Below, piece after piece: positions 1 through 37,998 of a stretch of 64,000 nt of DNA. The translations under genes were made by a program, and so were the position numbers. The number at the start of each line of letters is the position of its first letter. The stretch's first letter is position 1. The stretch lies in NCBI GenBank assembly GCA_028819215.1, contig JAPPMG010000096.1, positions 253,328 through 317,327 on the forward strand, in the 5' to 3' direction. Below the pieces are notes generated by a model. That model worked only from the letters and a program-made list of their open reading frames with translations. It was not told the DNA's origin and did not search any database. The stretch is from Bryobacterales bacterium (lineage in GTDB: Bacteria; Acidobacteriota; Terriglobia; Bryobacterales; UBA6623).

Positions 1-110
1 GGGGGGTGGGGGCCCGCGGGGGGGGGGGGTTGGGGGGGGCCCCCGCCCCCCCCCCGGGGTGTTGTGGGGGGGGGGGGGGGGGGGGCCGGCGCCCCCCCCC
101 CCCCCGCGTC
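1..110. other. G/C homopolymer run at contig end (probable artefact)
   Basis: The first ~110 bases are almost only runs of G and C, unlike anything else in the window. This is typical of low-quality sequence at the end of an assembled contig. Any reading frame through it is not meaningful. Confidence 0.8.
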
Positions 111-133
111 CCCCTGGGACAGCAGGAGGAAAG

Positions 134-595
134 CTGGATCTCTCCGACGCCATAGAGGTCTTGACTGCGCTCGGCGCGGCGGCGGCCGCCCTGGCCTCTT
201 GGCGCATCCACATGCACGCGCTTGCCAGGGACCTTCCGTTGATCAGCGGCTTCCTCGCTGACGACGTACCGCAAGACGGCCCTCGGATCTACGAGTTCCA
301 CATGAGCGGCGATACCGACAGGTGGGCGATATATGGCGCGCGGATCGGCCGGGGATGGCGCAGGCGAATCGCGCCGACCACGGGTGAGCCGCGAGATTCG
401 TTCTACCGGTTTTCCATGCATTTCCAAGGCGCTCCGTGGGTCCGAGCGCTCGAATTCGACCGCCCGGATACCGCCGGCAGGCTGGCGATTCATCCCGACA
501 CCCCCGAATCCTTCTGGGTGCGCTTTGATGTCCGCCTGAAGTCGTCGCCCAGGCGAAGGAGATGCGTGCTGGTGCGCATCACCGCGAACGAGTGA
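134..595 (+). CDS. hypothetical protein, possibly phage-borne, start uncertain
   Basis: An open frame runs from the homopolymer to a TGA at 593-595. From about 134 the translation looks like a real protein: an Ala-rich hydrophobic N-terminal stretch that could be one membrane segment, then a mixed, aromatic-rich soluble part. A good Shine-Dalgarno-like AGGAGG sits at 124-129, but the next in-frame codon is CTG at 134. The true ATG may therefore be lost to sequence error at the contig end. Its 3' 106 bases overlap the opposite-strand gene ending at 490. I recognise no family, and either overlapping frame could be spurious. Confidence 0.4.
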   Translation: MDLSDAIEVLTALGAAAAALASWRIHMHALARDLPLISGFLADDVPQDGPRIYEFHMSGDTDRWAIYGARIGRGWRRRIAPTTGEPRDSFYRFSMHFQGAPWVRALEFDRPDTAGRLAIHPDTPESFWVRFDVRLKSSPRRRRCVLVRITANE

Positions 596-756
596 ATCGC
601 GCCGATCAGAGTGGCCAGCGCCGCGCACGCCGACATGAACGGCACCGGGTTCGCGCACAGGCCGGCCCACGGGAGGCGGACGAATACTCCCGCCAGGAAG
701 CCGAGCATGAAGAGCGACAGCCACCACGCCGCAGCAGTAAGCCGGTAATCAAGCAC
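490..756 (-). CDS. small two-helix membrane protein of the element
   Basis: 88 aa read from a GTG at 756 that overlaps the stop of the upstream gene (TGA at 749-751), suggesting translational coupling. Two hydrophobic segments are visible at about residues 5-28 and 32-55, followed by a basic Arg/Lys-rich tail. It is the last visible gene of the leftward early operon. Size and topology fit a phage membrane accessory protein or a holin-like protein, but there is no diagnostic motif. The C-terminal 35 codons overlap a convergent frame. Confidence 0.5.
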   Translation of the reverse strand: MLDYRLTAAAWWLSLFMLGFLAGVFVRLPWAGLCANPVPFMSACAALATLIGAIHSFAVMRTSTHLLRLGDDFRRTSKRTQKDSGVSG

Positions 757-952
757 GGTCGCCCTCTTGCATCTGATTCGCCGGGACGCCGGCGAGGAAG
801 GGATCGGGACCGTCCAGGCCGTCCAGCAGCAGCGGGTCGATCGCTGCGTCGTGCATGCGACCGCCGCGCTCGCTGATGCGCTCGCGCTCCCACCGCGCGA
901 ACCAGATGTCAACGAGCCGGTCCAGCTGGGTGCGGCGGTCAGGATTCGTCAT
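749..952 (-). CDS. hypothetical small element protein
   Basis: 67 aa, acidic and aromatic, with an N-terminal stretch rich in Arg, Asp and Trp (MTNPDRRTQLDRLVDIWFAR). It overlaps the upstream gene by 14 bp and the downstream gene by 8 bp, the dense packing expected for a phage early operon. I recognise no domain. Confidence 0.6.
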   Translation of the reverse strand: MTNPDRRTQLDRLVDIWFARWERERISERGGRMHDAAIDPLLLDGLDGPDPFLAGVPANQMQEGDRA

Positions 953-1346
953 CGCCCCCCCCGAATGCCTCCATCTCCGCGATCCGGTCGAGCGCCCAGA
1001 GACAGTGAAGCTGCAAGCCCCGGAAGGCGCGCTCCCCGCGGAACGGCCGGGTCTCCTTCATCGGGCGCGACAGGCAGTGGACGGCATGCATGGCCAGCAG
1101 GTGCGCCGTCGAGCGGCGCTTGCCCGCCGCGGCCGTCGCGGCCTTGGGCTCGCGGTACCCGGTGTCGCGGCACAGGCGGACCCGGTACGAGTTGATGCGG
1201 GCGGGCAGGGCCCGCTCAAATATCGGCAGCAGGAGCAAATGGGCGAAGGTCTCGCCCGCGCCCGCGTTGGGGCGGTACATGAAGCGCGCGGACAGGGCGG
1301 CGTCGGCGCCGCGCTTGAGGATCGTCACCGGCGCCGCCTCCTCCAC
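939..1346 (-). CDS. hypothetical element protein, 135 aa
   Basis: A 135-aa protein with a basic, Arg-rich middle (around residues 52-78) and several His/Cys residues (LLAMHAVHCL; LQLHCLWALDR). It overlaps its upstream neighbour by 22 bp and the downstream gene by 14 bp. It lies in the middle of the leftward operon behind the Cro-like gene. There is no recognisable catalytic motif. It could be a nucleic-acid-binding regulator, but that is only an inference from the basic character. Confidence 0.55.
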   Translation of the reverse strand: MEEAAPVTILKRGADAALSARFMYRPNAGAGETFAHLLLLPIFERALPARINSYRVRLCRDTGYREPKAATAAAGKRRSTAHLLAMHAVHCLSRPMKETRPFRGERAFRGLQLHCLWALDRIAEMEAFGGGDDES

Positions 1347-1480
1347 AGGGCCTTCAAGGCGACGGTGAACACCCCGAGATAGAGCAGGGCGGCGCAGAGC
1401 AGGTAGCCGAGAAAGAACAGGGCTATCAAGCCCAGGGCCGCCGTTCCGGCGATCGAGAGGAAGTCCAGGACGGCCGTCAT
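1325..1480 (-). CDS. 51-aa single-pass membrane protein
   Basis: 51 aa starting at ATG 1478-1480, which overlaps the stop of the preceding gene by 4 bases (ATGA arrangement). About 35 residues are hydrophobic (for example LIALFFLGYLLCAALLYLG), and the C-terminus is a block of five arginines after a Trp. This is a positive-inside anchor as seen in small phage membrane proteins. No specific function is recognisable. Confidence 0.5.
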   Translation of the reverse strand: MTAVLDFLSIAGTAALGLIALFFLGYLLCAALLYLGVFTVALKALWRRRRR

Positions 1481-1617
1481 CGGGCGCCTCCCAGGGAGAG
1501 CGCCAGCGAGAGCGCGGGGCGCAGCAGGCGCTCGCAGGCGGCCAGCAGGGCCAGCGCGGCGAGCAGGGCCGCGGCGCGCGCGGCGAGACAGTATATATGC
1601 GAGCGGGGGTCGGCCAT
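1477..1617 (-). CDS. 46-aa small hydrophobic or lipoprotein-like protein
   Basis: 46 aa from ATG 1615-1617, two bases after the stop of the upstream gene. The hydrophobic stretch ALLAALALLAAC resembles a signal or lipobox, though the cysteine lies about 28 residues in. Its stop overlaps the next gene's start by 4 bases. The pair with the following 51-aa membrane protein recalls small overlapping lysis-accessory genes in phages, but nothing proves it. Confidence 0.45.
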   Translation of the reverse strand: MADPRSHIYCLAARAAALLAALALLAACERLLRPALSLALSLGGAR

Positions 1618-1619
1618 GG

Positions 1620-1901
1620 TCACGCAGCGGCCTCCAGCGCGACGATCGCCTTGTTGACGTGGTCCTGGGCGATGGCCTTGGCACCGCGAGACATGCCGGA
1701 GGTGCCGATGAGATACGACAAGACGCCGGGGCAGATTAACCAGGCGTCGTACACCCAGCCTTCCGGCGGCCGCCCGCCCGGGCAGACCGCGCCGGGCCGG
1801 GCCGACGGCTCCCGGCGGCGGACGCAGTAGAACGCGGTGTCGTCGACCCAGATGCCCCAGGGCGAGACCTTGGTCCAGCGGAGCTTCAACGTGGCGCTCA
1901 C
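1620..1901 (-). CDS. hypothetical element protein, 93 aa
   Basis: 93 aa, rich in Trp, Cys and Gly in the first 55 residues (VSPWGIWVDDTAFYCVRRRE), then an amphipathic C-terminal helix with Lys and Ala. It overlaps the upstream gene by 4 bp (1898-1901) and is followed 2 bp later by the next gene, so it is probably translationally coupled. The paired Cys residues are too few and irregular to call a zinc finger. No family recognised. Confidence 0.55.
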   Translation of the reverse strand: MSATLKLRWTKVSPWGIWVDDTAFYCVRRREPSARPGAVCPGGRPPEGWVYDAWLICPGVLSYLIGTSGMSRGAKAIAQDHVNKAIVALEAAA

Positions 1902-2173
1902 GAAGCAGCCTCCTCGCGGTTCTTGCGGCTCTTGTCCTCAAGGGCGAGCAGCATGTCGACGTGGGCCAGCACGGCGTCCCAGCTGATGCCGGGCTCGACG
2001 AGGCCGCGTGACTCGGATCTCTCGGTGGCGAGGACCAGGGTGCGCCGGCGCTCGCCCAAGGGGGTGGCGTCGAACGGTTCTCCGAGGGCGACCCGGACGC
2101 GGCCGGCAGTGCCGCGACCAGGGATCTCCAGGGTGACTTCCCTGGTGAAGCGCCCGAAGCTGTCAAACGGCAT
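1898..2173 (-). CDS. hypothetical element protein, 91 aa
   Basis: 91 aa starting at ATG 2171-2173, overlapping the end of its upstream neighbour by 11 bp. The first half reads like beta strands (VTLEIPGRGTAGRVRVALGE). The second half is a helix ending in a charged tail (LEDKSRKNREEAAS). It is part of the leftward operon behind the Cro-like gene. No known domain is visible. Confidence 0.55.
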   Translation of the reverse strand: MPFDSFGRFTREVTLEIPGRGTAGRVRVALGEPFDATPLGERRRTLVLATERSESRGLVEPGISWDAVLAHVDMLLALEDKSRKNREEAAS

Positions 2174-2480
2174 GGCGGTCCAGCTCCCCCAGCGCGGCGT
2201 CCAGCTCGCGCTCGCTGATGCGGCTGTCGCCGGCGGGGCCGCGCGGGCGCAGGCGCTGCACGATCTCGTGGGCGCGGCGGCCGAGCTCCTCGAGGTCCTC
2301 GAAGTCGCCGTAGTCCAGCGGGCCGTCGACGGTCTCGCTCCAGGCGGCAAGGTTGTCGGCGAGCTCGATGAGATCCCGCACGTCGCCGGGCGTGATCCGA
2401 GATGTGTCGGTGCAGCTGGAGGCGGGCGAGAGGGCAGTCTCGAACGGGCCGGCCAGCGGGCTTGGGCGGACGGGCTCCAT
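2163..2480 (-). CDS. hypothetical element protein, 105 aa, acidic helical
   Basis: 105 aa with a low-complexity, Pro/Ser-rich first 30 residues and then acidic, Leu-rich helices (DVRDLIELADNLAAWSE; DFEDLEELGRRAHEIVQRL). It shares a base with the end of the upstream gene at 2480. It is probably a small regulatory or accessory protein of the element. No catalytic residues stand out. Confidence 0.6.
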   Translation of the reverse strand: MEPVRPSPLAGPFETALSPASSCTDTSRITPGDVRDLIELADNLAAWSETVDGPLDYGDFEDLEELGRRAHEIVQRLRPRGPAGDSRISERELDAALGELDRHAV

Positions 2481-2842
2481 CAGGCGGCCCTCCCGGTCTC
2501 TTCTTCACGCGCGACCGCTCGCGAGGCGCCTAGGTGCTCGCGGATGCGGGCCAGCGTCTCGTGAGAGCTCTTGAAGCGCGCGAGGGCCGACAGGGCCAGC
2601 GTGGCGATGACCTCGCGACGCATCCAGGCCGGCACGGAGCGGAGGCGCTGGCCGTTGTGGCCCCAGGCGGCCTCCAGGCCCTGCAGCGGGCCGAAGCCGC
2701 GCAGGCGCCACTCGCCTTCGCGGCGATGCAATTCCAGGTGCGCCCAGTCAACGCCCTCGCAGATCACGGTCCAGAGGCTCCGGCCGGGATCGAACGTGGC
2801 GACGGGCTCGAAGCGGAATTCGGTCTCGACGGAATCGGGCAT
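2480..2842 (-). CDS. hypothetical element protein, 120 aa
   Basis: 120 aa. The N-terminal half has a Trp-rich beta-like pattern (SLWTVICEGVDWAHLELHRR). The C-terminal half is helical and basic (around residues 72-110). Its start touches the stop of the Cro-like gene at 2842, so it is the second gene of the leftward operon. In many temperate phages this position holds replication or recombination accessory genes, but I see no motif for either. Confidence 0.6.
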   Translation of the reverse strand: MPDSVETEFRFEPVATFDPGRSLWTVICEGVDWAHLELHRREGEWRLRGFGPLQGLEAAWGHNGQRLRSVPAWMRREVIATLALSALARFKSSHETLARIREHLGASRAVAREEETGRAA

Positions 2843-3069
2843 CAGGCCGCCCTCCCTTGCGCGAGGACTCGCTCGCGAGCCTCGGAGGCCGCCCGCTCGG
2901 CCGCCTCCAGCAGATCGAGGGCGGCGGGCAGGCGAGCCTCGAAGCCCTCGGGCGGGGGGCGGTGCCCGTTCAGGATCATGTTCAGCGCGGTAGGGTCGAT
3001 ACCGAGCTGCCTGGCGACGTCCCGCTGCCGCAGGCCGCGCCGGACGATTTCTGCCTTCAGGTTTCGCAT
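2842..3069 (-). CDS. Cro-like HTH (XRE family) regulator
   Basis: 75 aa. Residues about 1-40 form a helix-turn-helix of the XRE/Cro type: LRQRDVARQLGIDPTALNMI is a typical helix 2-turn-helix 3, followed by a Pro-rich turn and an Ala/Glu-rich C-terminal helix. It is the first gene of the leftward operon and is divergent from the S24-type repressor at 3144, the classical cI/cro layout. The 19-bp palindrome at 3068-3086 overlaps its start codon. There is no Shine-Dalgarno sequence, so the mRNA may be nearly leaderless. The role as lytic-side regulator is inferred from position. Confidence 0.75.
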   Translation of the reverse strand: MRNLKAEIVRRGLRQRDVARQLGIDPTALNMILNGHRPPPEGFEARLPAALDLLEAAERAASEARERVLAQGRAA

Positions 3070-3086
3070 ATTGATCCAGTCAATAT
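3068..3086. promoter_or_regulatory. operator O1 (19-bp imperfect palindrome)
   Basis: ATATTGATCCAGTCAATAT: the outer arms ATATTGA / TCAATAT are perfectly inverted. It shares these arms with O2 and overlaps the start codon of the Cro-like gene (3067-3069). It is probably a binding site for the repressor, the Cro-like protein or both. Confidence 0.7.
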
Positions 3087-3089
3087 AGA

Positions 3090-3116
3090 GTAATATTGAT
3101 CAGATCAATATGTCAA
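3090..3116 (-). promoter_or_regulatory. candidate promoter for the leftward Cro operon
   Basis: On the minus strand TTGACA is followed after 15 bases by TATTAC. The spacing is shorter than the ideal 17, so the -10 assignment is tentative. Transcription would start near 3083, only about 14 bases before the Cro ATG, which fits the lack of a ribosome binding site. Confidence 0.45.
3093..3111. promoter_or_regulatory. operator O2 (19-bp perfect palindrome)
   Basis: ATATTGATCAGATCAATAT is a perfect palindrome around one central base. Its centre is 25 bp from that of O1. It lies between a leftward -35-like TTGACA (+ strand 3111-3116) and a -10-like TATTAC (3090-3095), so bound protein should block transcription of the Cro operon. 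Confidence 0.75.
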
Positions 3117-3143
3117 GAACTTTTTTTTTGATACTGTCCGGTT

Positions 3144-3878
3144 GTGATCGGCGAACGGCTAGCGACTGCGCGCCGGCGTGCCGGACTGAAGCAGGTCGAT
3201 CTGGCTGTGGCACTCGGCGAGCGCTACAACCAGTCTGTGATTTCGGCGGTCGAACACGGCCAGTCCTCGCTCCGCCTGGATGGCGCGGTTCGTGCTGCCC
3301 AAGTGCTCGGCGTGTCGCTGGACTACCTCGTCGGGCTGACCGATGATCCCGTTCCAGCTACCGATCGAGCTTCGAGTGTCGAGGCCCCACCCGAGCAGTC
3401 ACCGATCAAGTCGCGCTCCTCGGGCAGGATCCTGCATTTCACCTCCAGCGGAGACGCAGGTGCCGAGGATGAATTTGAGTCGGTGCGACGCTACGACCGG
3501 CGAGACTTGCGACTGGCGGCCGGGTCACACTCCTTTTCCGACATCGAGCCCGCGGCCGGAGAGGTTCGGTTCCGACTGGACTGGCTGCGCGCTCAAAACT
3601 TGCGCGCGTCAAACCTGGCGCTGCTGGACGCGGCCGGGGACAGCATGGCGCCGACGATCAGGGACGGCGACTCTGTCCTAGTGGACGAGTCTCGCATCGA
3701 GCCGGTTCACGGCAGGGTCTTCGCCATGCGAACGGTGGACGGCCCGCTTGTCAAGCGCCTGCGCAAGCGGCGTGACCGTTGGTGGGCGGACAGTGACAAC
3801 CAGGAACACGAGTCGCGCCCGATTCTCCGCGAGGACCGGCTCCTCGGCTTGGTGGTCTGGTGGGCTCATACGGAGTGA
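3144..3878 (+). CDS. phage repressor, XRE HTH plus S24 peptidase-like domain
   Basis: 244 aa from a GTG start. Residues ~4-66 are an XRE helix-turn-helix (LATARRRAGLKQVDLAVALG). The C-terminal part (~155-240) is the S24/LexA-CI fold: the serine of GDSMAPTIRDGDSVLVD matches the catalytic Ser, and the lysine in FAMRTVDGPLVKRL matches the catalytic Lys. Such repressors keep the lytic operon off and self-cleave under RecA activation. The gene diverges from the Cro-like gene with two operators between them. Downstream lies the repeat-rich gene-free stretch. The S24 assignment is strong; SOS inducibility is inferred from the family. Confidence 0.88.
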   Translation: MIGERLATARRRAGLKQVDLAVALGERYNQSVISAVEHGQSSLRLDGAVRAAQVLGVSLDYLVGLTDDPVPATDRASSVEAPPEQSPIKSRSSGRILHFTSSGDAGAEDEFESVRRYDRRDLRLAAGSHSFSDIEPAAGEVRFRLDWLRAQNLRASNLALLDAAGDSMAPTIRDGDSVLVDESRIEPVHGRVFAMRTVDGPLVKRLRKRRDRWWADSDNQEHESRPILREDRLLGLVVWWAHTE

Positions 3879-4346
3879 CGCAACCACCAGATCGGGCATC
3901 ATCGGCTCAAACCGCTACCCACTACATGTTGTGGTGCGCTCCGCCGACAGCTAGCTGTCGGTAGCTGTCGGGCGCATGGGCTCGAATTTCTTCCAGATCG
4001 CCCCAAAGTCCCTTCCCGGCAGGCGTTTGAACGTTTGAACGCGCTCGACAGCTAGTATCATTTCAAGTGTTCCAAAAGCGGTTGCTAGCTGTCGGATGTT
4101 CCATTTGAAGTGTTTCACGCCCAGTTTCTGTGAACGCCTTTCGCGCTGCGCCAGCCGCGGGCCCAGCGTCGCAACTAACTGATTTGCTGCGCGTTACTGC
4201 TCAGCCATGATCGCAATTGCGCGGAATTTTGCCGCTCGACAGCTATCCAAGTTCAAGTGTTCGCTCGCAGCCCGGAAGCGGGAGATGCAGAGTTGGGGCC
4301 CTGCGGCGGGCATCGCACTCCGCTTGTCCGCGAGGCCCGGGTGGCT
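3879..4346. repeat. gene-free stretch with iterated TAGCTGTC / GACAGCTA words
   Basis: No gene is seen. The 8-bp word occurs six times in ~300 bp in both orientations: 3946, 3952, 3962, 4047, 4086 and 4238. The first two form the perfect 18-bp palindrome CCGACAGCTAGCTGTCGG at 3944-3961. Two longer direct copies pair GCTCGACAGCTA with TTCAAGTGTTC after 7 or 6 bases (4043-4072 and 4234-4262). A tandem CGTTTGAA is at 4024-4039. The position next to the repressor suggests the element's end, an attachment region or protein-binding iterons. Confidence 0.65.
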
Positions 4347-5843
4347 CTAACGCCTCTCGTAGATATCAACGATCTCCGGTCGCTCGCCATCTGTCGAAAT
4401 GCCCGCCGCGAGCATCAACTTGGTAATGGCTTCGATCGTCTTGGCATCGGGCTGTGGGGAGCGATCGGCGTAACCTTCGGCAATGAATAGCGGCGTCCCG
4501 CCAGCTTGGTTGGGTTTCTTCCAGACTTGCGGATCGGCTCCGCGCGCGGCCAGCAGGTTCGCCACAAGCGGGTAAGCATTGTACGCGGCTCCGTGCATGG
4601 CTGTATCGCCGTTGTTGTCCACGGTGTTGAGGTCAGCGCCCAGATCGAGCAGCAGCCTTACCGCTTCCAGCGCTTCGCTTTCCTCGCCCGCCTCCTGGTC
4701 CGGCGACGTCGTGCCGACTCCGGCCGCAGCCATGAGCGGCGTGGTGTTGTTGAAGTTGGGCAGCAGGGGATCGCCCCCCAGTTCCATCAGCAGGCGCATC
4801 AGCGGAACGTCGGCGCGATCGGCGGCCAAGAGCAAGGGCGTCGCTCCCGCCGCCCCCGCGGTGGCGATGCGTGAGGTCGTACCGGGCAATCCCTGGGTGC
4901 CTCGAGGCAGGCGGAAATCGACATCCGCGCCGCGCTTCACAAGCTCGCGCACAAAGTCGGCGCTCGAGAGTCGGCCGGCTCCTATCGGCGGCGCGCCATC
5001 GTTGAGGTCGTTCGAATCCGGCTTGCGCACTCCCGGAATCAAGTGGAGAGCCGTGAATCCGGTCCGGGCGTCGTTTGGATCGGCACCCGCATCGACCAGC
5101 GCAATCGCAAGCTCGAAGTGGCCGTTCCGAACTGCAATCTGCAAGGGACACAGGGTCGGCGCTCCCCCCCTGGGCTTCCAGCCCTCCGCGGGCTGCATCA
5201 ACGCGTTCACATCGGCCCCGGCCTCGATAAATGCCTGCACGACGTCGAGATGGCCCTCCCGCACGGAAAGCAAGAACGGCGTAAACCCGGAATCGAGGCG
5301 GGCGTTCACGTCGGCTCCAGCATCGATCAGAGCGCGCACGACCTCGGCGTGGCCCTCGGCCGCTGCCCACATCAAGGCCGTCTGGTCGCGCCGCTCGCGC
5401 TGATAGGGGTTGGCGCCATGCGTCAGCAATGCCTCCACCGTCTCGGGATTCCCGGACCGTGAAGCCAGCATGAGGGCGCTCTCCCCGCCCTTCATGCGGG
5501 TATTCGCGTCGGCTCCAGCCTCCAACAGCAGCCTTACTATCGCGGCGTTGCCATTCGTGCAGGCCTCCGCCAGAGCTGACGCGCCGTAGCGGTTCACAGC
5601 GTTGACATCGGCGCCCGCTCGAACGAGCAACCCAGCCATCTCCGCGTCATCGTGATACGCCGCCCAATGCAGTGCGGTGGTCCCGTCGACCTGTGCGGCA
5701 TTGGCGTCAACGCCGGAATGGAGGAGCATGCGAACGCTCGCCCTGTCACGTTGCTCGGCGGCGTCGGGGAGCGATGCCGCGAATGCAGAACCTGAGAGGC
5801 TCAGCATCAGGAGCACGATTGCAGCGATCTGTCGCCAGCGCAT
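4347..5843 (-). CDS. secreted ankyrin-repeat protein
   Basis: 498 aa with a cleavable signal peptide (MRWRQIAAIVLLMLSLSGSAFA). The rest is a long array of ankyrin repeats carrying the typical G-x-T-A/P-L-x-x-A core, for example DGTTALHWAAYHDDAEMAGL and later NGDTAMHGAAYNAYPLVANL. Ankyrin arrays bind other proteins. This one should act outside the cytoplasm. It is the third gene of a leftward operon behind DUF1592 and DUF1552 genes, 11 bp after the latter. This trio recurs in Acidobacteria and Planctomycetes as far as I know. The partner is unknown; an assembly or adaptor role for the two upstream proteins is inference. Confidence 0.9.
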   Translation of the reverse strand: MRWRQIAAIVLLMLSLSGSAFAASLPDAAEQRDRASVRMLLHSGVDANAAQVDGTTALHWAAYHDDAEMAGLLVRAGADVNAVNRYGASALAEACTNGNAAIVRLLLEAGADANTRMKGGESALMLASRSGNPETVEALLTHGANPYQRERRDQTALMWAAAEGHAEVVRALIDAGADVNARLDSGFTPFLLSVREGHLDVVQAFIEAGADVNALMQPAEGWKPRGGAPTLCPLQIAVRNGHFELAIALVDAGADPNDARTGFTALHLIPGVRKPDSNDLNDGAPPIGAGRLSSADFVRELVKRGADVDFRLPRGTQGLPGTTSRIATAGAAGATPLLLAADRADVPLMRLLMELGGDPLLPNFNNTTPLMAAAGVGTTSPDQEAGEESEALEAVRLLLDLGADLNTVDNNGDTAMHGAAYNAYPLVANLLAARGADPQVWKKPNQAGGTPLFIAEGYADRSPQPDAKTIEAITKLMLAAGISTDGERPEIVDIYERR

Positions 5844-37788: not shown

Positions 37789-37998
37789 ATGAGCGCGGAA
37801 CTGATAGCGATCCTAGCCGGCGGCATGGCACTGGGCGGGGTGCTGCTCACGTCCTTGCGGGGAATATCTGATCGGCTGGGCAAGGTCGAAGAGCGCTTGG
37901 GAGGCGTCGAGCAGCGGGTTGCGCGGCTAGAGGGGCTATTTGAGGGCTCGGGCCTTTTCCGTCCCGTGGGAACGCCCGAATCAGCGGCAGGCGACTAG
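37789..37998 (+). CDS. small membrane-anchored coiled-coil protein
   Basis: 69 aa: one N-terminal membrane helix (LIAILAGGMALGGVLLTSL), then a regular heptad stretch (RLGKVEERLGGVEQRVARLE) that should form a short coiled coil, and a flexible end. Small proteins of this shape occur widely and often accompany toxin-antitoxin or nuclease-type genes; here a toxin-like pair follows ~300 bases later. Function unknown. Confidence 0.6.
   Translation: MSAELIAILAGGMALGGVLLTSLRGISDRLGKVEERLGGVEQRVARLEGLFEGSGLFRPVGTPESAAGD

Follow-up and report, generated by a model that had tools for sequence, protein, structure and literature searches.

A two-operator repressor/Cro switch on the lambda plan is predicted in a Mu-like prophage of a Bryobacterales bacterium

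What do two closely spaced palindromes control when they lie between a divergently transcribed phage repressor gene and a gene for a Cro-like protein, and in what kind of element do they do so? The question arises near one end of a 64,000-nucleotide stretch of DNA from a Bryobacterales bacterium (the window). An initial annotation had proposed a repressor/Cro switch here, and its basic description is confirmed: two palindromes with shared outer arms occur 25 bp apart between a divergent S24 repressor gene and an XRE gene. Two points absent from that annotation are that the switch belongs to a Mu-like prophage and that O2, one of the two palindromes, lies at the place from which lambda OR2 activates PRM. 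The genes and predicted operators are as follows.

3144-3878, plus strand: CI-like S24 repressor of 244 amino acids, with an HTH domain and an S24 peptidase domain (PF00717, 1.2e-14; HTH_3, 6.5e-8; phrog_4, 2.9e-33)
2842-3069, minus strand: Cro-like XRE protein of 75 amino acids, first gene of the predicted early operon (HTH_31, 1.4e-7; HTH_3, 1.6e-7)
3068-3086, no strand: predicted operator O1, ATATTGATCCAGTCAATAT; its centre, 3077, is at -67 from the repressor start codon, and the site takes in the predicted early RNA start and part of the Cro start codon
3093-3111, no strand: predicted operator O2, ATATTGATCAGATCAATAT, a perfect dyad; centre 3102, at -42 from the repressor start codon; falls in the spacer between the -35 and -10 elements of the early promoter

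The seven-base outer arms (ATATTGA) of O1 and O2 are identical, and 6 bp separate the two sites, whose starts are 25 bp apart. O2 is indeed perfect, as had been claimed, with nine of nine pairs symmetric; O1 has seven of nine. The reported overlap of O1 with the Cro start codon also holds, two of the three ATG bases (3067-3069) being inside O1.

This pair is not due to chance. Among 200,000 dinucleotide shuffles of 3067-3143, at least one perfect 7-5-7 palindrome arose in 1831 and two arose in 7, and none held two with the same arm. When any loop of 3-9 bases was permitted, a repeated arm was seen in 3 of 50,000 shuffles. The window holds 13 perfect 7-5-7 palindromes, and ATATTGA is the only arm occurring twice. 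At up to three mismatches to the motif, O1 and O2 are the only matches in the 64-kb window (0.36 sites expected; two matches were reached by 5 of 100 shuffles). The initial annotation had suggested searching the genome for ATATTGA-N5-TCAATAT. In the whole 5.86-Mb assembly, the motif occurs at up to one mismatch at the O1/O2 locus alone, both copies being exact, and at up to two mismatches at two further places, on contigs C58 and C84, each with two mismatches. In viral contigs the motif, which is AT-rich, occurs in at least 120 stretches.

The window starts 34 kb inside the prophage, and the switch is located at the immunity end. The relevant features are these.

219186-257596 of contig C92, no strand: Mu-like transposable prophage of 38,411 bp; its part in the window is 1-4269, with the phage-left terminus at 4269
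749-2842, minus strand: small early ORFs after Cro, six of which were compared with L165, a Mu-like prophage stretch in genome G010
3944-4245, both orientations: six copies of the repeat TAGCTGTCGG with at most one mismatch, near the phage end

A 5-bp target duplication, GCCCG, flanks the prophage on both sides (window copy, 4270-4274). The prophage ends are of the form TG...CA and have 17 of 22 terminal bases alike; the sole other candidate pair in the end search had 6 of 22. Counted from the phage-left end, the repressor gene occupies 392-1126, the operators 1159-1202 and Cro 1201-1428. MuA is encoded on the same strand as Cro (stretch L025, 10822-12936; phrog_310, 1.6e-108; PF02914, 5.3e-40), and its Pfam matches at 1e-3 are PF02914, PF09039 and PF09299. 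MuB lies left of the window, again on the strand of Cro (phrog_296, 9.3e-73; PF09077). Terminase, portal, Mu F, protease, capsid, tail sheath and tape measure genes are also found left of the window, among them Mu-type head and tail genes (Mu F, protease, sheath). Judging by gene order, the DDE transposase A and the ATPase B would be expressed from one early operon. Nine copies of TAGCTGTCGG occur in the whole window at up to one mismatch, against 3.95 expected, and the copies are probably candidate end-binding sites of the transposase.

Some neighbouring sequences deserve mention. At L025 13634-14302, an early protein of 222 amino acids weakly matches the N-terminal part of the Mu transposase family (phrog_310, 5e-5) and is 79% identical over 175 amino acids to a protein in L165; it is perhaps a separate Mu-type DNA-binding protein. 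A G-rich, low-complexity stretch with undetermined contig bases lies around the window's left edge (L025 14482-15261), so ORFs there may be wrong. The small early ORFs 1898-2350 and 2163-2480 overlap. The chromosomal gene adjoining the prophage end, at 4347-5843, is an ankyrin-repeat gene.

How the palindromes could act depends on the promoters around them. The elements below include comparisons across five loci, namely the window's and four relatives.

3111-3116, minus strand: TTGACA, the -35 element of the leftward early promoter; the hexamer's final base doubles as the first base of O2, and TCAA of the complement (3113-3116) is invariant in all five loci
3087-3092, minus strand: putative -10 element of the early promoter, TACTCT, a weak match with an 18-bp spacer
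3130-3137, plus strand: putative -10 region of the repressor promoter, either GATACT (3130-3135) or TACTGT (3132-3137) behind TG-A

A scan for consensus promoters gave none at the threshold used, and the early promoter is assigned because its -35 element is kept in the relatives. The earlier placement of O2 in the spacer of a leftward promoter stands as far as TTGACA is concerned, which is present and conserved. On the other strand, T3132 and A3133 are invariant across the five-locus alignment. A gap of 6-8 bases separates the repressor's -10-like element (GATACT or TG-A-TACTGT) from the GTG at 3144. A leaderless repressor mRNA is therefore expected, with its RNA start predicted at or next to that GTG. 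A run of nine T residues (3121-3129) between the early -35 element and the repressor -10 region could serve to bend the DNA or to recruit a host factor.

The early RNA is predicted to start at 3080-3081, inside O1 and 11-12 nt ahead of the Cro ATG. The nearly leaderless Cro mRNA proposed previously is thus plausible, and the situation is similar in the relatives L029, L030 and L031, where by eye the predicted start is at or adjoins the Cro start codon. The initial annotation had allowed O1 to block either transcription or the start of translation. Of these options, we prefer a block of transcription, since an RNA from about 3080 holds at most about two-thirds of O1, and we set the other aside. 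In such translational control, O1 would form a hairpin in the Cro mRNA or block ribosome binding there, which would accord with its overlap of the start codon. However, the best-conserved dyad is O2, which is ahead of the predicted RNA start. Moreover, no O1 hairpin is possible from the predicted start near 3080 because one arm (3080-3086) would be untranscribed. We consider control at this level very improbable. Given the short Cro leader, the overlap of O1 with the start codon looks like a by-product.

The positions of the sites invite comparison with phage lambda. The lambda record has the first base of cI at 37940 (minus strand), with OR1, OR2 and OR3 centred at -66, -42 and -19. With centres at -67 and -42, O1 and O2 can therefore be laid over OR1 and OR2. 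Both systems have a divergent S24-type CI and Cro, two operators at near-equal distances and a repressor mRNA that is predicted here to be leaderless. Leaderless mRNA is reported for lambda cI and PaaR2 (PMC8630535), and CI bound at OR2 is described as activating PRM in lambdoid phages (PMC5977221, PMC8630535). Unlike in lambda, no counterpart of OR3 was found at the present locus: besides O1 and O2, no site of their motif occurs at the OR3 place at up to three mismatches. Nor did L025, L026 or the window show a third or OL-like site of the motif at that threshold; for the leftmost 1.1 kb of the prophage, the search went up to two mismatches. A palindrome with other arms (six of seven pairs) is centred at -22 from the repressor start. 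Also in contrast to lambda, where cro starts 35 bp past the OR1 centre, Cro here starts inside O1, and the switch is part of a Mu-like phage. Because no OR3 was found, we do not class the locus as a three-operator OR of the lambda kind. Three CI operators are described for phage phi13 (PMC8516035).

We consider it likely, with good confidence, that the locus is the lysis-lysogeny switch of the Mu-like prophage, built on the lambda plan with two operators, where O1 and O2 are like OR1 and OR2. This explanation rests on the sites, their geometry, their conservation and the prophage context, from which we infer binding, activation, autocleavage and the RNA starts. The CI-like S24 repressor would bind O2 and, probably cooperatively, O1. 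Once bound, the repressor would cover both the -35/-10 spacer and the start region of the early promoter and thereby keep Cro, the small early genes, MuA and MuB off. A dimer on O2, at -42 of the leaderless start, would be well positioned for contact with RNA polymerase on the repressor promoter, in the manner of lambda CI at OR2. By this analogy, the repressor probably activates its own leaderless promoter from O2. Upon DNA damage, the S24 domain would cut itself and the early promoter would open. Cro would bind the same sites, removing the activation of the repressor promoter and later damping the early promoter.

The repressor itself has features consistent with such induction. Ser167, Lys204 and Ala126 are invariant in all five loci, and by analogy we take Ser167 and Lys204 to be the S24 catalytic pair and Ala126-Gly127 to be the scissile bond. 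This candidate cleavage site is Ala-Gly in four of the five loci and Ala-Asp in L030. The invariance of the presumed catalytic pair, together with the Ala-Gly in four loci, suggests that the repressor may cleave itself and that the switch may be SOS-inducible. SOS induction would differ from the situation in Mu itself.

If the arrangement is functional, is it kept in relatives? The repressor has a match in 15 of 100 genomes searched (its own included), and a divergent Cro relative stands beside it in 5 of the 13 stretches examined: that of the window, one in G004 and three in G008. The genomes G004 and G008 are uncultured Bryobacterales MAGs of the same genus as the window's genome. In a search of 399 genomes drawn from the class, 61 had a Cro match at E ≤1e-4. 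Matches of at least 125 bits were seen at only five loci in three genomes, and the next match had 47 bits; we took these weaker matches (47 bits or less) to be general HTH matches. The related repressors are 40-44% identical to the window's protein, and the Cro relatives 44-60%. A single-sequence search of viral contigs gave no relative of the repressor, and an alignment search there gave distant S24 proteins, the best 80 of which were kept as a comparison set only. In a PDB sequence search, the repressor had no match at 0.01, and Cro had weak matches only, two of them to 434-type repressor designs or proteins.

In all five loci, the best 19-bp palindrome in the 130 bp upstream (by arm-weighted score) is at -41 to -43. 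This palindrome adjoins a conserved TTGA(C/T)A in the four relatives, within which the TCAA of the complement is invariant. For each locus, 2.7-3.4% of shuffles have their best palindrome within -41 to -43. The same is true of 3 of 52 other S24 upstream regions, only a rough control because near-duplicates and distant proteins with uncertain start codons are included. This control comprised 57 upstream regions (5 of the family and 52 others, identical regions merged) for the best 80 proteins of each of two listings. We dropped cases in which the match started after residue 12, no start codon was nearby, less than 120 bp lay upstream or N was present. Shuffles scoring as high as the real sequence, of 2000 per locus, numbered 0 for the window, 47 for L031, 114 for L030, 181 for L029 and 1112 for L032. 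Taken alone, therefore, only the window's palindrome is rare. The L032 palindrome is below the threshold of a separate palindrome search, and when pairs are simply counted at widths 17-20, a palindrome elsewhere scores equally in L029 (at -112) and in L030 (at -16).

The arms of O2 change from locus to locus: ATATTGA in the window, ATATCAR in L029, AYATGAC in L030, ASGTGAT in L031 and MCATGAR in L032. In the alignment of the five O2 sites, six of nine dyad pairs have changes on both sides and 88.9% of cells are paired, where the dyad was defined on the same five sequences on which it was tested (n = 5) and the loci, all from one genus, are not independent. Neither value was reached in 500 shuffles, and partners slid by 1-3 columns pair in 23-49% of cells.

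A second palindrome is present in every locus except L032, chosen by eye in L029, L030 and L031. The Cro start codon is within it in these three loci and overlaps it in the window. In L032, the only in-frame Cro start codon falls inside the single site, so that an operator-like palindrome is at the Cro start codon in all five loci. Extra in-frame starts occur in L031 upstream of the GTG in its O1. The O1-O2 spacing is not conserved (25, about 18, 28 and 29 bp, with the single site in L032). The O1 of L029 shares just part of its O2 arm, and this locus is without a clear -10 element for the repressor. Given the position of the sites, the chance tests and a layout kept with changing arms in four other loci, the two-operator repressor/Cro switch originally proposed is upheld as a prediction.

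The single site of L032 has a probable explanation. L032 (3781-3799) and L030 (3483-3529), both from G008, have nearly identical Cro genes, but a 28-column gap in L032 removes the stretch between the operators, including the -10 place, so that a single hybrid site remains. The L032 element seems short, with genes that are chromosomal by eye soon after a nuclease gene, and it may therefore be a remnant. The L032 switch is likely a silenced remnant. Behind the repressor in three relatives are Sel1-repeat and ankyrin-repeat genes (L029 3422-4426, L030 613-1716, L169 3945-6158), which are possibly cargo expressed in the lysogen.

The changing arms also bear on which protein reads them. Residue 35 in the recognition helix of the repressor, a position that we assign by analogy with lambda CI, is A, N, H, H and H in the window, L029, L030, L031 and L032, and goes with the half-site bases 5-6, which are TG, CA, GA, GA and GA. 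In the presumed recognition helix of Cro, the residue after L-N/S is M, A, H, R and H in the same order. The arm sequence goes cleanly only with the repressor's helix, and the Cro-like protein is short and divergent. These observations could mean that O1 and O2 are operators of the repressor alone, that the XRE protein works elsewhere as a Ner-like or other early regulator, and that there is no activation from O2. However, the divergent genes and the operator at the Cro start are kept in all five loci. The Cro helix residue varies by locus as well, although L031 (R) and L030 and L032 (H) have the same half-site bases 5-6. We therefore regard a role for the repressor alone as unlikely and favor a switch in which both proteins use the two sites.

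The lambda-like reading must also be reconciled with the type of phage. The c repressor of Mu is not known to be of the S24 class, and Ner belongs to the Nlp type, corresponding to HTH_35. On the Cro-like protein, HTH_35 scores 13.8 bits against a cut-off of 25, while HTH_3 and HTH_31 pass theirs. The early regulator is therefore not an Nlp-type Ner, and we do not class the locus as a Mu c/Ner switch. The layout nevertheless recalls the c-ner region of Mu and D108, in which a repressor gene and a divergent gene for an early negative regulator precede A near the phage-left end. In the Mu record, c is at 339-863 and ner at 1099-1326, and the gene order c-ner-A is the same as here. Unlike Mu and D108, this prophage has an S24 CI and an XRE Cro.

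Other phages share parts of this combination. The transposable Haemophilus phage SuMu has a CI-like repressor (COG2932) divergent from ner, 27.7% identical over its length to the one here, and its gene order agrees with that of this prophage; in the SuMu record, Ner is annotated as Nlp. The transposable Pseudomonas phage Fc02/B3 is described as having a CI-like repressor divergent from ner, and the accessible part of that source describes no operator pair (PMC9936078). In both SuMu and Fc02/B3, by contrast with our locus, the early regulator is ner/Nlp. The immB region of telomere phage PY54 has leaderless cI and cro mRNAs according to RACE and, as here, a short CI/Cro intergenic region with fewer operators than lambda (PMC4488713). 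Unlike the present case, PY54 is described there as having a single operator, OR3, which lies upstream of the repressor gene and is bound by Cro, and its prophage is a linear plasmid. CI-like repressors in transposable phages, leaderless cI and cro, and reduced operator sets are thus already known. A limited literature search by title and abstract (start-codon operators, SOS-responsive transposable phages, prophages of Acidobacteria or Bryobacterales) found no description of this locus.

Could the operator pair double as a transpositional enhancer bound by the N-terminus of MuA, as in Mu? Such a role would be compatible with the two-operator switch. The repressor, which we take not to be of the Mu c type, counts against it. 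Further, no Mu I-alpha domain model scores for this MuA (Pfam, 1e-3), and genomes that lack a MuA match also have related switches. In its favor, the sites are 1159-1202 bp from the phage-left end, in the interval between repressor and early regulator, as in Mu, whose enhancer is described as the target of MuA subdomain I-alpha (PMC3362531). Overall, we judge an enhancer function to be quite unlikely.

The preferred reading, a lambda-type switch in a Mu-like prophage, raises the question of how this combination arose. Five of the six small early ORFs match L165 with 55-64% identity; one piece in an overlapping frame is 88% identical, and one match covers just 26 amino acids. The 120-amino-acid ORF at 2480-2842 has no match in L165, and the ORFs of 222 and 114 amino acids further left are 79-80% identical to L165. 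L165 (14 kb) contains no match to the repressor, and its sole Cro match is inside the MuB gene. Conversely, G004 and G008, which have relatives of Cro and the repressor, lack a MuA match. Near the related switches are an ERF gene (L031), a PD-(D/E)XK gene (L032) and tyrosine integrase genes (L168, L170), which we count as neighbors, assuming for none of them that it belongs to the same element. Because relatives occur in genomes lacking MuA and L165 lacks the repressor and Cro, the immunity module has probably been swapped. The simplest history suggested by these sequence relationships is that the module moved between phage types, in either direction.

As a switch, the locus is close to known ones. 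The most useful side of the finding is the set of five loci, which have differing arms and one geometry in a little-studied lineage and therefore form a natural set for studying operator/repressor co-variation. In addition, a transposing phage with a lambda-type switch offers a way to ask if an enhancer carried by the operators is required for Mu-like transposition. A broader interpretation is tentative, and we regard it as a possibility on the doubtful side. The Mu-like phage may have replaced its c/ner operators by a lambda-type, SOS-responsive OR1/OR2 module common to non-Mu phage elements of the genus. Its transposase would then either have adopted the new operators as an enhancer or need no operator-borne one. 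The module family, in turn, would change its arms together with the repressor helix, making new immunity groups while the -42 geometry is kept.
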